This document shows positions 1,751-7,508 of a stretch of 22,136 bases of DNA, piece by piece. Within the stretch, counting starts at the first letter, position 1. Each line of letters begins with the position of its first letter. The stretch comes from a virus. Location of the stretch: the IMG/VR virus record IMGVR_UViG_3300035698_010079, positions 1 through 22,136 of that record; one strand, given 5' to 3'. A program made the position numbers and the translations under genes. The notes under the pieces were generated by a model that saw only the letters and a list, made by a program, of their open reading frames with translations, was not told the DNA's origin and made no database searches.

Positions 1751-1781
1751 AGGTAGACATGCTTTTTCCCTTTAATATCAA
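1751..1781 (-). repeat. 31-bp repeat, copy 1 (inverted)
   Basis: Read on the minus strand it has TTGATAT, 18 variable bases ending GCATGT, then CTACCT. The bases just before it on that strand include GGTTGGCAA, as before copy 2. It is the only copy in inverted orientation. Confidence 0.7.
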
Positions 1782-1848
1782 ACACTTGCCAACCTACACT
1801 ACCTTTTCCTATATTTTTAGTATAGTTTAGTAAGTATATAGAGGAGAC

Positions 1849-1872
1849 CACACGTATATATACGCGCGCGCG
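1849..1872. other. 24-nt alternating purine-pyrimidine tract
   Basis: The bases alternate pyrimidine and purine without a break, including a perfect palindrome CGTATATATACG (1853-1864) that runs into CG repeats up to 1872. Such tracts can adopt Z-DNA or cruciform structure. It lies between the inverted and the direct copies of the 31-bp repeat. Confidence 0.5.
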
Positions 1873-1957
1873 AGATTTTTCAGTTTTTAGTTTTCCTGAT
1901 CTTTTTCTAGGTCTTCTTCAAATTTCGACCCGAGGTAGGCACATGGTTGGCAACCCT

Positions 1958-1988
1958 TTGATATCATTGACGAATAGTATGTCTACCT
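1958..1988 (+). repeat. 31-bp repeat, copy 2
   Basis: TTGATAT, then an 18-base middle beginning CATTGA and ending TATGT, then CTACCT. It is preceded by GGTTGGCAACCC and followed by a TTTTGGGG word shared with copy 4. Confidence 0.75.
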
Positions 1989-2033
1989 ACCTTTTGGGGA
2001 GGTTGGCAGGATTTTCTCCAAACTTGTAACCTA

Positions 2034-2064
2034 TTGATATTGCTACATATTAGCATGTCTACCT
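2034..2064 (+). repeat. 31-bp repeat, copy 3
   Basis: TTGATAT, an 18-base middle ending AGCATGT, then CTACCT and GTTTCGGG. It starts 76 bases after the start of copy 2. The preceding GTAACCTA resembles GCAACCCT before copy 2. Confidence 0.75.
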
Positions 2065-2097
2065 GTTTCGGGCTGATTTTTGGCGTCTTTTAACTTA

Positions 2098-2128
2098 TTG
2101 ATATCATTGAGAAAAACCATGCCTACCT
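2098..2128 (+). repeat. 31-bp repeat, copy 4
   Basis: TTGATAT, an 18-base middle starting CATTGA as in copy 2 and ending CCATGC, then CTACCT and GTTTTGGGG. It starts 64 bases after the start of copy 3 and about 120 bases before the first rightward gene. Confidence 0.75.
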
Positions 2129-2525: not shown

Positions 2526-2906
2526 ATGGAAGATAAAGAAATACCGCGTTTTTATACCATAAAGTTTGATACGCCGGAGAAGCGCAAACAATTATGCAAA
2601 GATTGGTGCGAACATTTGGGCAAGGGATTTACCCGTGAATGCTTTCCACCCTGCGACCCTCAAACTTTCAAGAAATATGCAAAGAAATTTCCAGAGGATT
2701 TCCCCAAGGCGGACCGCGATGAGGCAGATAGAAATCAATTAATTGCATGGGAGGAAAGGTTGCATAAAAATGCTGATAAAGATACAGGCAATGCATCATC
2801 AATAAAATTCGGTCTCATGAATATAAATAAAGTTTTCAAAAACACCGAGGACACTTCTCTGACCATAAAAATAGAATTAGTGGATGCCTGTGGAAGTAAA
2901 TCTTAA
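2526..2906 (+). CDS. terS: Probable terminase small subunit (TerS)
   Basis: TerS binds the packaging start on phage DNA and directs the large subunit. The 126-aa product has an N-terminal helix-turn-helix-like block around residues 20-58 (LCKDWCEHLGKGFTRECFPP, then CDPQTFKKYAKKFPEDFP) in which a cysteine replaces the usual turn residue. A later block, WEERLHKNADKDTGN with IKFGLMNINKVFK, matches the helix and F-L-N-x-N pattern common in phage small terminases. ATG 2526 is preferred over TTG 2520 because AAGGAG at 2511-2516 is well spaced only from the ATG. It overlaps the start of terL by 23 bases, and the four 31-bp repeats upstream are possible targets. The identification rests on position plus the HTH-like block. 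Confidence 0.65.
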   Translation: MEDKEIPRFYTIKFDTPEKRKQLCKDWCEHLGKGFTRECFPPCDPQTFKKYAKKFPEDFPKADRDEADRNQLIAWEERLHKNADKDTGNASSIKFGLMNINKVFKNTEDTSLTIKIELVDACGSKS

Positions 2907-4170
2907 ACTACCTAGAAAAATGGGGGAGCTTCTACAGGGGGAGGCACGTTGGCGCGTTGCCTATGGTGGCCGAGGCTCTACAAAGTCATGGTCATTTGCA
3001 GCGGGCCTGTTGATACGCGCCCTACAGCCTGACATGAAGGGCTTCAATGTTCTTTGTGGCCGTGAGCTTCAGAAATCCATTAAAGATTCCGTCCATGCAT
3101 TGCTGATTAAACAAATTGGAATATTAAAATTAGAAAATTATTTTGAGTGGGGTGAGTCGTATCTTAGGACAAAAACAGGCACTAGTTTTATTTTCCTTGG
3201 CTTGAAATCTAACATTGATGGCGCAAAATCTCTCGAAGGGTGTAAAATATTATGGATTGAAGAGGCTCATAATATTTCTAAAAAGTCATGGTTAACGCTT
3301 GAGCCGACTCTACGGGAAGCAGGCTCAGAAATATGGGTATCATTTAACCCAGACCAAGAGGAAGATGAAACATATCAAAAATTAGTTGTTAACACCCCCC
3401 CAAGATGTAAAAGGGTGTTTATCTCATGGCGTGACAATCCTTGGTTTTCTCAAGAACTGGAAGAACAACGCGCTTATATGCGAGAGAATGATCCAGATGC
3501 ATATGAGCATGTATGGGAAGGTGGCTTTAACAAGAGGTCACACGCTCAAATATTCCTTGGTAAATGGAGGGTTGAGCACTTTGAACCGCAAGACACATGG
3601 AAAGGCCCGTATGATGGCGCGGATTGGGGTTTCTCTCAAGATCCGACTGTTAGGGTGCGTGTTTACATAGATGATGAAGATGAAAATAATAAGATATTAT
3701 ATATATACAAAGAAGCTTTTGGATACCACACAGACCTTGACGCTATACCAGAATTGTTTGATGAATTTCCTGACAGTCGCAAGGTAAGAATCCGCGCGGA
3801 TAACTCGCGCCCTGATACTATTAGGCATGTGCTTGGTAAGGGATTTGACATTATCGGTGCAGAAAAAGGGCCGGGATCTGTGGAAGATGGCATTGCTTGG
3901 ATACGCTCATTTAGAAAAATTATCATACATCCTGAGTGCGAGAACACAGCGCAGGAATTCAGACTATACAGCTATAAAATTGACAAAGCGACAGAAGATG
4001 TATTAACTGCTATAGTTGACAAGTGGAATCATGCAATAGACAGTATACGTTACGCCTGCCAACCTATGATCAAGGCGGTTAAAGCTGGTTTCACAAAGAA
4101 GCAGGCTAGAGAAACGAAGCGGGCGGCCAAGACTACAATTGCCCCAACAATGGATGAGGAATCATGGTAG
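2884..4170 (+). CDS. terL: Terminase large subunit, PBSX-type (Terminase_3)
   Basis: TerL is the ATP-driven motor and nuclease that fills the procapsid. In the 428-aa product the Walker A-like loop YGGRGSTKS is at residues 27-35, Walker B ILWIEEAH at 122-129, and the coupling motif WVSFNP at 151-156. The C-terminal RNase H-like nuclease shows acidic positions in GADWGF (D247), IRADNSRPD (D306) and DKWNHAIDSIRYA (D379, D386). Length is normal for the PBSX/SPP1 group, which mostly package by headful. It starts inside terS and its stop overlaps the portal start (ATGGTAG), so the three are probably co-translated. It is not the Mu gp28 type expected with the Mu-like head genes that follow. Confidence 0.93.
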   Translation: MPVEVNLKLPRKMGELLQGEARWRVAYGGRGSTKSWSFAAGLLIRALQPDMKGFNVLCGRELQKSIKDSVHALLIKQIGILKLENYFEWGESYLRTKTGTSFIFLGLKSNIDGAKSLEGCKILWIEEAHNISKKSWLTLEPTLREAGSEIWVSFNPDQEEDETYQKLVVNTPPRCKRVFISWRDNPWFSQELEEQRAYMRENDPDAYEHVWEGGFNKRSHAQIFLGKWRVEHFEPQDTWKGPYDGADWGFSQDPTVRVRVYIDDEDENNKILYIYKEAFGYHTDLDAIPELFDEFPDSRKVRIRADNSRPDTIRHVLGKGFDIIGAEKGPGSVEDGIAWIRSFRKIIIHPECENTAQEFRLYSYKIDKATEDVLTAIVDKWNHAIDSIRYACQPMIKAVKAGFTKKQARETKRAAKTTIAPTMDEESW

Positions 4171-6398
4171 GAATAAGAGATTTTTTTCGTAAAAGCTTTG
4201 ATTTTAACCGCAAGGTTTCAAAGAAGCCCGTAACTATGCAGCCCTTAGGCACATCCGGTACAGATATTTTCTCACGTATGTTTGATGAGGAGTATTTGGC
4301 AAAGCTTTTAAGAGAGAGAGGCATTGAGGTTTTCGACCAGATGCGCCGCTCTGATGGCATCGTTGCTATGCTGCTTAAGGTGGTTAAAAACCCTATTAAA
4401 TCTGCAAAATGGACTATCGAATCTGCTGAAAAGGGTGATGAAGAAGAAGACAATATTGCTGAATTTATAGAGCATGTTTTATTTGATGATATTGTCACGA
4501 AGGCAGGCAAGCGTACTACATTCCAAGATTTCATAACCGAGGTTCTAACCGAGATTGAGTTCGGTCATTCTGTCTTCGAGGTGATCCATAAAGTCGTTAA
4601 GGGTGATCCTAAATTCGGTGATTATCTTGGTATTGCCGACCTTGGTTTCAGACACCAGCGCAGTATCCTTGAATGGCAGTTGCTCCATGACGGAACGATT
4701 GAGTACGTGAGGCAACAGGTACACGGCGACTTGCGAACGGATGTATTAATCCCCGGTCAGCACCTATTGGTATTTAGCATGGACAAGGAGGGCGATAACT
4801 ATGAGGGCATCTCCATGTTGCGCCCTTGTTATGGCTCATTCTTCAGGAAAAACATTTACCGCAAGCTACAGGCTATCGGCATAGAGCGTGCATCAAAGGG
4901 CGTGATTGTAGGCGTGATCCCAGAGGATATGATAACAAGAGACGACTATGAGAGTCAGCGTCAGGAGTTCCAAGCTTTGTTAGACAAAGTGTCCTCACAT
5001 GACATAAGTAACTTCGTTCTAGGTGCTGGATTTGATGTTAAAGAGCTTAAAGTTACGCATGATTCCGAAAAGGTGCAGGCGGTTATTGAGGGCGAAAATA
5101 ACGAAATGGCATACGCTTTTGTGGCCAACTTTATGCTGCTTGGAACGGGTGGAAACAGTGGTTCATTTGCTCTAGGGCAGGATTTATCACAGATATTCTT
5201 ATCCGGAATACAGAATATAGGCGTTGGTATTGCAGATAAAATTAACTTGCAGCTTATCCGCCCTCTTGTGGATGCTAAATTCGGCCCACGAGATAAGTAT
5301 CCTAAGCTCAAGGTTTCAGGCATAGCGGATAAGGCTGGAGAAACTAAGGCAAATACACTCTCCACGCTTATTAGTTCGGGTGCGGTACAAAAGAGCCCCG
5401 CCCTACAGGAGCATGTACATAAGATATTTGAGTTACCAGATATTGACGAGGATTTAGCAGAAGCTGACATGGAAGACCCTGATGATGCGCCTGATGATGG
5501 TGGAGAGCCGGAGGGTGGTTCAGATCCTGTCACCGCTTCTGAAGAGTGTAAAAAAAAACTCCATGACGGGTGCTGTGGCCCAATAAAGCTACAAGACCAG
5601 CAGCGCGAGGACTTCCCTGTATCTGCATACATTGAGGATAGGGCGGATGTATTAACACCACTGATGCGGAATAGTTTAACTACCCGCGCGAATGCTATGG
5701 TCAGGCAGATTGCTATAATCATGGATAGCGGGAGCAGTGAATCTAGCATACGCAAGGCTGTATTGGCTGTTAAGATGCCAAATAGCACACAATATGCGGG
5801 CGAGCTCAGGACTTGGACATCCTTAACAATTGACGGCGCGGCGCGTGACGTTACGCGCGAGTTGCGAGACAGTGAGCAATTTGACGAGATAAGTAAATTG
5901 CCTAAGGACCAACGCGATAAAATAATAGCTGATATTGTTCTGGTGGCGGACGCGCAGAATGTTGATTATGAGAAGGCTGTGCATTTCACGTTCAATGAGT
6001 CGTATGGAAGGTCTCCTGACGATGTTACCATATCAGAGATGGAGTTAGCCGTTGTGAGGCAGTCGTCAAAGAGAGTTATAGAAACTGCTGCAACTAATAC
6101 ATCCGCCAAGGTTGTCAACACCACAAGGGAGAATATATTCTTCAGAGACAATGTTCTTGATGAGATTGAGTCATTCGTTTTCACAAACCCAGATCCAAGA
6201 AGTGCGATATGTCAAACTCTAACAGGCAGGGTATTCACCAAAGAAGAATACGAGAACACATCAAATATTCCTCCACTCCACCACAACTGCAAGAGCTTTA
6301 TAGTCGCTCAAACGCTGGGCGCAACTGGCAATAAAGGGTTAACCAGCGGTGGCTTGGGGGTAACTGACCCAGCCATCTTAAAAACTAAAACATTATAA
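4164..6398 (+). CDS. Mu gp29-like portal (DUF935) fused to a MuF-type head morphogenesis domain
   Basis: The portal forms the dodecameric DNA entry channel at one capsid vertex; MuF-type proteins sit inside or beside it and aid head assembly. Residues about 30-420 match the DUF935 portal pattern, for example MRRSDGIVAMLLKVVKNPI, EFGHSVFEVIHK and NYEGISMLRPCYGSFFRKN. An acidic linker (about 425-460) and a Cys-rich stretch ECKKKLHDGCCG follow. The last part has the MuF signature: DPRSAICQTLTGRVF, then IPPLHHNCKSFIVA near residues 680-715. At 744 aa it is about the sum of Mu gp29 and gp30, which are separate in Mu. No toxin domain is appended. GAGGA lies just before the ATG. Start and product class are clear; exact domain edges are estimates. 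Confidence 0.88.
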   Translation: MVGIRDFFRKSFDFNRKVSKKPVTMQPLGTSGTDIFSRMFDEEYLAKLLRERGIEVFDQMRRSDGIVAMLLKVVKNPIKSAKWTIESAEKGDEEEDNIAEFIEHVLFDDIVTKAGKRTTFQDFITEVLTEIEFGHSVFEVIHKVVKGDPKFGDYLGIADLGFRHQRSILEWQLLHDGTIEYVRQQVHGDLRTDVLIPGQHLLVFSMDKEGDNYEGISMLRPCYGSFFRKNIYRKLQAIGIERASKGVIVGVIPEDMITRDDYESQRQEFQALLDKVSSHDISNFVLGAGFDVKELKVTHDSEKVQAVIEGENNEMAYAFVANFMLLGTGGNSGSFALGQDLSQIFLSGIQNIGVGIADKINLQLIRPLVDAKFGPRDKYPKLKVSGIADKAGETKANTLSTLISSGAVQKSPALQEHVHKIFELPDIDEDLAEADMEDPDDAPDDGGEPEGGSDPVTASEECKKKLHDGCCGPIKLQDQQREDFPVSAYIEDRADVLTPLMRNSLTTRANAMVRQIAIIMDSGSSESSIRKAVLAVKMPNSTQYAGELRTWTSLTIDGAARDVTRELRDSEQFDEISKLPKDQRDKIIADIVLVADAQNVDYEKAVHFTFNESYGRSPDDVTISEMELAVVRQSSKRVIETAATNTSAKVVNTTRENIFFRDNVLDEIESFVFTNPDPRSAICQTLTGRVFTKEEYENTSNIPPLHHNCKSFIVAQTLGATGNKGLTSGGLGVTDPAILKTKTL

Positions 6399-6399
6399 T

Positions 6400-6428
6400 T
6401 TGACGAAATACATAAACGTGGGTAATAA
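6400..6428 (+). promoter_or_regulatory. Candidate sigma-70 promoter before the protease gene
   Basis: TTGACG (6400-6405), a 17-base spacer, and TAATAA (6423-6428) lie between portal and protease. Transcription would start about at the protease ATG (6435), implying a leaderless message; the gene indeed lacks a good ribosome binding site. It is a sequence match only. Confidence 0.35.
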
Positions 6429-6434
6429 TTAGAC

Positions 6435-7508
6435 ATGAAGAAAAATATTTATATTCTTGAGCACGAAGGTGAAGATGACCAATTTCTTATCAGAGATGAT
6501 GATACTGACATCTCACACGTGCAACTTATGCGTACTGGTGAGTTCGATTATTGGGGCGATGGCTCTAAGTTAGAAATTACGCCTGAGATGTTCAGGACAT
6601 TCAAGAAGAATTTTGATGCACGGGTTCTTGGCGTCGATATAATGATTGATTATTTTCACCAAAGCGGTGGCGAGGCTGCCGGTTGGATACGGGAGATAAC
6701 CCTCAAAGAAAATGATACGCAACTGTGGCTTCAGGTTGAATGGACAGAGCGTGCAAAAGAGAAAATAATGGCAAAAGAGGTGCGGTATTTGTCCGCTGAT
6801 TTCTCAATTGACTGGAAAAATCCTGAAACGGGCGACTCACATGGCCCTGTTTTACATGGCGGTGGACTGACAAACCGTCCATTTTTAAAGGGTATGAGAG
6901 CTATTTTGCATGATTTGAACGAAAAACTTGACGAAAACGATGTTACGGTTGAAGATATAATTAGCGGTTTAAAAAATTGTCAGGTAGAAAAAAAGGAAAA
7001 CATAGATATGAAACTTTCTGAATTGAAGCAAGCAGCAATTGTTTTGAGTGATGCTGATCAAAAGGAACTTGGTGTTGCTATTGGTCTTGTGCCAGAAGAC
7101 ACCAAACTTGCAGATGATAATAGCAGGCTACAGATTGAGCTTGCTGCTGAAAAGCAAGCTACTGAAAAATTAACCAAGGAAATTGAAATTCAGAAAAAAG
7201 AAGCAGCTTTTGCTACGCTTATGTCTGAGGGTCGTGCAGTTGAGGCGCAGAAAGAGGCTTACCTAGCCGGAGATATGGATTCATTCTTGAAGCTGGCAGT
7301 TCCTGTAAATCTTAGCGGCACTGGTGACGGTGGCAAGGTTGTTGACAAGGAAGTGTTGCCCACAACAAGGGAAGATGCCGATGTCGAGCTCATGAAATTA
7401 TCGGATGCGAAAATTGAAACTAACCCGAAGTTGACAATTGCTAAGGCTTTGAGCCTTGCTATTGCTGAGAATCCAAAGCTTGCAAAAATTGCACAGCGTG
7501 ATGTTTAA
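6435..7508 (+). CDS. Mu gpI-like prohead protease with C-terminal scaffold
   Basis: This protein should be the capsid maturation protease, cutting the scaffold and itself inside the prohead. Residues 1-160 fit the Mu-like I protein family (PF10123): DYFHQSG with candidate catalytic His75, AAGWI at 81-85, YLSADFS with candidate Ser120, and GGGLTNRPF at 142-150. Residues about 190-357 are charged and helical with a coiled-coil run (AAEKQATEKLTKEIEIQKKE in pieces), typical of an internal scaffold. The 357-aa length matches Mu gpI (about 360 aa). An internal start at 7008 may make the scaffold alone. The upstream region lacks a strong ribosome binding site; GGGT lies 10 bases before the ATG. Confidence 0.85.
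   Translation: MKKNIYILEHEGEDDQFLIRDDDTDISHVQLMRTGEFDYWGDGSKLEITPEMFRTFKKNFDARVLGVDIMIDYFHQSGGEAAGWIREITLKENDTQLWLQVEWTERAKEKIMAKEVRYLSADFSIDWKNPETGDSHGPVLHGGGLTNRPFLKGMRAILHDLNEKLDENDVTVEDIISGLKNCQVEKKENIDMKLSELKQAAIVLSDADQKELGVAIGLVPEDTKLADDNSRLQIELAAEKQATEKLTKEIEIQKKEAAFATLMSEGRAVEAQKEAYLAGDMDSFLKLAVPVNLSGTGDGGKVVDKEVLPTTREDADVELMKLSDAKIETNPKLTIAKALSLAIAENPKLAKIAQRDV
7008..7508 (+). CDS. Nested scaffold protein from an internal start (candidate)
   Basis: An in-frame ATG at codon 192 of the protease gene (MKLSELKQAAIVLSDADQKE onward) is preceded by AAGGAA at 6993-6998, nine bases upstream. This is a better ribosome binding site than that of the full gene. The 166-aa product would be exactly the helical scaffold part without the protease. 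In Mu, gene Z is made this way inside gene I, and lambda Nu3 inside C. The sequence shows the start and site; the expression is inferred. Confidence 0.55.
   Translation: MKLSELKQAAIVLSDADQKELGVAIGLVPEDTKLADDNSRLQIELAAEKQATEKLTKEIEIQKKEAAFATLMSEGRAVEAQKEAYLAGDMDSFLKLAVPVNLSGTGDGGKVVDKEVLPTTREDADVELMKLSDAKIETNPKLTIAKALSLAIAENPKLAKIAQRDV

Follow-up and report, generated by a model that had tools for sequence, protein, structure and literature searches.

Outside lambda, little is understood of how a small terminase (TerS) chooses the DNA of its own phage. In lambda cosB, the R2 box is oriented opposite to R3 with a site for IHF, a DNA-bending protein of bacteria, between the two, and the bend made by IHF lets a dimeric TerS dock (PMC4669245; PMC4856287). 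Measured in the same way as the locus reported here, cosB shows a 13-bp inverted pair (R3 at 53–65 and R2 at 108–120) spaced 55 bp, with a 12/13 match to the IHF consensus at 79, between R3 and R2, and it lies directly before nu1. In SPP1 pac (pacL-pacC-pacR), binding regions bracket a central segment (PMC4856287). Specific binding of TerS to pac has been hard to show in vitro for headful phages (PMC9611059), and a site whose sequence predicts a need for IHF would permit a direct test of TerS binding with and without IHF.

The window analysed here is the whole stretch of 22,136 bases, which is an entire IMG/VR virus record and a linear fragment. Its non-coding gap at 1293–2246 (about 954–955 bp, from the ORF list, with flanks assigned by Pfam and PHROG matches) holds the repeat array. 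To the left of the gap are leftward early-type genes, namely a Dda-like helicase represented by its C-terminus only and small ORFs. To the right, genes run rightward from 2247 and encode an 81-aa protein (ATG at 2247, between the array and the presumed terS), the presumed TerS, a large terminase (TerL) of the Terminase_3 family (2884–4170, plus strand; PF04466, E 1e-34; PF17288) and a Mu-type portal, followed by a Mu-like protease, a capsid protein and tail genes. The 126-aa ORF at 2526–2906 (plus strand) is weakly identified as TerS, by its place before TerL and a weak likeness to gp43 of phi1422 (E 0.017 by phmmer among six sequences), which itself matches a terminase-small-subunit PHROG. 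The ORF has no database match of its own and no Pfam match, and a single-sequence AlphaFold model of it was unusable (pLDDT 45). An Rfam search gave no matches.

The repeat array and its two halves

The initial annotation described four copies of TTGATAT-N18-CTACCT, one of them inverted, and exact matching bears this out: copy 1 is at 1751–1781 on the minus strand, and copies 2, 3 and 4 are at 1958–1988, 2034–2064 and 2098–2128 on the plus strand. With two mismatches allowed, the chance expectation for the window is 0.51 matches, and none of 100 shuffles gave more than three. When any spacing from 5 to 30 is searched, no other 7+6 dyad has four copies in the gap, and in the whole window just one other does, a GGT-rich low-complexity run. 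The 31-bp extent first given to the unit is right in that both ends are exact, but the unit starts earlier, with YAA at −7 to −5 in 4/4 copies, and conservation, counted from TTGATAT, extends from about −9 to +31 and no further. The array was also said to fill the non-coding DNA directly before terS. It does lie inside the gap, but it occupies only part of 1293–2246, and it ends 118 bp short of the ORF at 2247 and about 400 bp short of the presumed terS (ATG at 2526). Copy 1 points left and copies 2–4 point right, unit orientation following gene direction. Copies 1 and 2 make up a 44-nt inverted repeat (75%) with its midpoint at 1869.5, centred on an alternating TATATATACGCGCGCG tract; a palindrome search places this purine-pyrimidine tract, CGTATATATACGCGCGCGCG, at 1853–1872. 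A second word, GGTTGGC, is found four times in the gap (at 1692, 1788 on the minus strand, 1945 and 2001) and only twice elsewhere in the window, and may be a further binding site.

The earlier start of the unit gives its first half a familiar form. YAA-N4 precedes TTGATAT in 4/4 copies, which yields YAANNNNTTGATW, the reverse complement of the IHF consensus WATCAANNNNTTR as given in PMC7581858. All four copies match this 13-bp consensus exactly, as a match in sequence only: site 1 (TATCAAACACTTG, copy 1) at 1776–1788 on the plus strand, and site 2 (TATCAAAGGGTTG, copy 2) at 1951–1963, site 3 (TATCAATAGGTTA, copy 3) at 2027–2039 and site 4 (TATCAATAAGTTA, copy 4) at 2091–2103, all three on the minus strand. 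Four exact sites in the gap compare with 0.098 expected and a maximum of two in 1,000 dinucleotide shuffles, and no cluster of three exact sites within 500 bp was found in the other loci (556 kb). IHF sites carry an A/T-rich element at a set offset (PMC7581858), and each copy has this 5′ element, as a 6-mer 8 nt beyond TTGATA with 4–5/6 A/T: AAAAAG at site 1, GAATAG at site 2, TATTAG at site 3 and AAAAAC at site 4.

The second half of the repeat stands apart as a box of its own, (C)ATGYCTACCT. No hexamer is more enriched in the gap than CTACCT/AGGTAG, which has 8 copies there versus 9 in the other 21 kb and 0.34 in shuffles (Poisson P 3e-8, uncorrected for some 2,080 words). Four of the 8 copies fall outside the 31-bp units, at 1669(+), 1799(+), 1933(−) and 1987(+). 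Around IHF site 1, the box of copy 1 (1751–1756, minus strand) and a box at 1799–1804 (plus strand) are the left and right arms of an inverted pair with centres 48 bp apart. Around IHF site 2, the left arm is a box at 1933–1938 (minus strand; CATGTGCCTACCT) and the right arm is the overlapping boxes of copy 2 at 1983–1992 (plus strand; CTACCTACCT), with centres 50 bp apart. Inverted hexamer pairs also arise around IHF sites by chance, at 14/122 sites in other loci. IHF sites 3 and 4 are flanked by direct boxes, those of copies 3 and 4 lying at 2059–2064 and 2123–2128 on the plus strand, and one outlying plus-strand box at 1669–1674 has no IHF site. In 4/4 copies the box stands 28.5 bp from the IHF centre. 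The IHF matches, the box enrichment, the fixed spacing and the inverted pairs are all present in the DNA itself, and the repeat is very probably a composite of a candidate IHF site and a separate box. With a consensus IHF site as half of the repeat, the picture shifts from an array for one protein to a bent nucleoprotein complex.

Packaging and the alternatives

The best explanation of the whole, which we hold tentatively, is that the array is an IHF-assisted recognition site at which DNA packaging starts. A TerS or pac site had been among the first suggestions for this DNA and is still the best single guess, although the IHF half had been missed. Each unit would be an IHF site plus an adjacent 6–10 bp box, (C)ATGYCTACCT, for a DNA-binding protein made by the phage. 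By folding the DNA at four points, host IHF would set neighbouring boxes side by side (inverted at sites 1 and 2, direct at sites 3 and 4) for a multimeric protein, the likeliest candidate being the small terminase from the adjacent gene. The array would then be a packaging-start recognition site with cosB-like geometry, in which copies 1 and 2 perhaps have a cleavage region between them. We infer binding by IHF and TerS and a function in packaging; among the uses considered, packaging initiation ranks first, at somewhat less than even confidence. A fuller version is doubtful, namely that a Terminase_3 (headful-type) terminase works on a scaffold of four IHF bends, each with its TerS box, two of them as cosB-like inverted pairs that bracket the cut region. 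If it is true, IHF-assisted docking of TerS would have originated in, or reached, phages far outside the lambda-like cos group, and the locus L106 described below would be a second case.

Against packaging stands the TerL family, Terminase_3, which differs from that of lambda. Members of this family studied elsewhere are usually headful packagers. In the TerL-related loci, the density of exact IHF sites is much the same upstream of terL (0.100/kb) as elsewhere (0.090/kb). Across the non-coding DNA of 91 dereplicated TerL loci, short-word arrays occur about as often in other intergenic regions (15/136) as before terS (5/43; P 0.55). A window-based profile of the loci gave a rise in arrays about 600–700 bp before terL, which consists partly of repeats inside terS genes and is gone in the non-coding test.

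Control of transcription is possible though unlikely: a phage activator or repressor would sit on the boxes and IHF would loop the DNA, which would govern the divergent operons, early to the left and late to the right. The array does lie between divergent gene blocks, with its copies pointing accordingly, and a sigma-70-like 10/12 match occurs at 1786–1815, but promoter-like matches are at chance level (6 versus 4.4) and no conserved −10-like element follows the boxes. TTGATA resembles a −35 element, with no −10 at 16–18 nt. The good precedent is the Caulobacter GTA promoter (GafY and IHF elements upstream of gtaT), where an IHF site and a second box likewise stand before packaging genes; there, however, one IHF site per promoter is usual (PMC11150451), in a single composite with recognised −35 and −10 elements, as against four composites here without a conserved core promoter. 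Two other promoter types were set aside on inspection. A sigma-54 reading of TTGGCAA-N-TTGATA has its spacing off by one and no TTGC, and a Bacteroidetes-type promoter misfits in spacing and in the −7 element, the phage using Shine-Dalgarno sites.

A replication origin, with an initiator on the boxes and IHF as architectural factor, is distinctly improbable. A Dda-like helicase is encoded nearby on the left, AT-rich DNA lies at about 1490–1550, and the cumulative GC skew of the first 5 kb has its minimum inside the array, near 1900; this minimum is confounded, because gene direction changes at the place where the skew switches. The array has no DnaA box, the single one (at 2389) being within an ORF. 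The iterons proposed in the initial annotation are unlikely in their classical form, since the units are 64 and 76 bp apart, unlike contiguous iterons, and each has its own IHF site; the combination of close repeats, AT-rich segment and DnaA boxes that typifies an iteron origin is not what is found here. Whether the array is a control region or an origin, it would still be an unusually dense and regular IHF composite.

An attP site of a tyrosine integrase, in which the CTACCT boxes are arm sites and the IHF sites shape the intasome, is very unlikely. Lambda attP uses three IHF sites (PMC7581858) together with arm sites, but at varied spacing, against the strict box-IHF register of four units here; no integrase is among the ORFs with matches in the window, which is an incomplete genome, and the window has no tRNA or tRNA-like T-arm core. 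Least probable is the partition centromere of a phage-plasmid: in P1 parS, ParB boxes of two types, heptamer and hexamer, lie around an IHF bend (PMC5016525), but at one IHF site versus four here, and no parA or parB was found in this incomplete genome.

Arrays and the motif in other loci

No close relative of the window phage was found, and none of the relatives found by TerS, portal, MCP or tail proteins shares the array region; the locus L067 shares only the portal (48%) and has a different terminase. Searches of viral contigs with tandem and extended motif patterns gave no matches. Seven other viral contigs with one motif copy were rejected as chance, all copies lying in long open frames, with no YAA and no TerL relative. 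A tandem-copy match in an Actinomycetota MAG (L065, 7245–7386) was also put down to chance: it is a perfect 71-bp tandem duplication in a 108-aa ORF, adjoining cytochrome oxidase-type genes.

The closest parallel comes from L106, a locus found through its TerL (41% identity) that pairs a Terminase_3 TerL with a Terminase_2 TerS. Its non-coding DNA directly before terS reads TACAACCTTACTA - IHF - TAGTAAGGTTGTA, a pair of perfect 13-bp inverted arms around an exact IHF site with 39 nt between the arms, together with a third copy of the box (TAGTAAGG) and a second exact IHF site, the array lying 130–240 bp before terS. Among 122 IHF sites in other loci, this is the only one with a 10-bp inverted pair at that spacing. 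The L106 box is unlike that of the window, in keeping with the idea that every TerS recognises a box of its own. L106 is a single case and was found after the idea had formed; it is therefore support, not proof. Separately, positions 1–400 of L106, upstream of the packaging genes, are a pentapeptide-repeat-like coding region with GATCTCA 19 times in 400 bp.

NrS-1 (AB746912), whose TerL (47%) is among the nearest relatives that have a name, has dense AAGTGTAACC boxes in both orientations at 6206–6600, including 11 copies of GTGTAAC, directly before terS. NrS-3 lacks this array though its TerS protein is nearly the same; an array in front of terS is thus not necessarily a TerS site. The NrS-1 array overlaps the annotated hypothetical gene NRS1_29; what was annotated as a gene may instead be a regulatory or packaging array. 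Short-box arrays also lie inside two related terS genes (ATTCGCA in L144, 5329–5510; CTGCGCA in L123, 5364–5619), reminiscent of pac sites inside terS, and five GCGGGGATC boxes in both orientations lie in non-coding DNA at 250–520 of L016, before the ORF that precedes terL.

Comparison with P1 parS, SPP1 pac and lambda cosB

P1 parS resembles the array in having short boxes on either side of an IHF site, and differs in its single IHF site, its two box types and its position beside parAB. The SPP1 pac site is alike in its bracketing of a central segment by binding regions and in having a TerL of a headful-type family. Its pacL and pacR share no sequence identity, whereas the bracketing units here are near-inverted copies, and no IHF is described for SPP1.

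Lambda cosB (R3-I1-R2-R1, bound by gpNu1 and IHF) is also alike. Both arrays are directly upstream of packaging genes with further boxes towards terS, and in both an IHF site is flanked by short inverted boxes, whose centres are 48 and 50 bp apart here versus 55 in lambda. The geometry resembles that of cosB, though hexamer pairs occur by chance and one small ORF lies between the array and terS. It differs in having four IHF sites versus one, in its 6–10 bp boxes, which are unrelated in sequence, and in its terminase: TerL is of the Terminase_3 and not the GpA type, and the presumed TerS is not of the gpNu1 type, for gpNu1 gives PF07471 and the presumed TerS gives no Pfam match. No cosN was identified in this fragment. 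With a TerL in Terminase_3, the array cannot be filed under lambda-type cos. The array may therefore work like cosB without belonging to that family.
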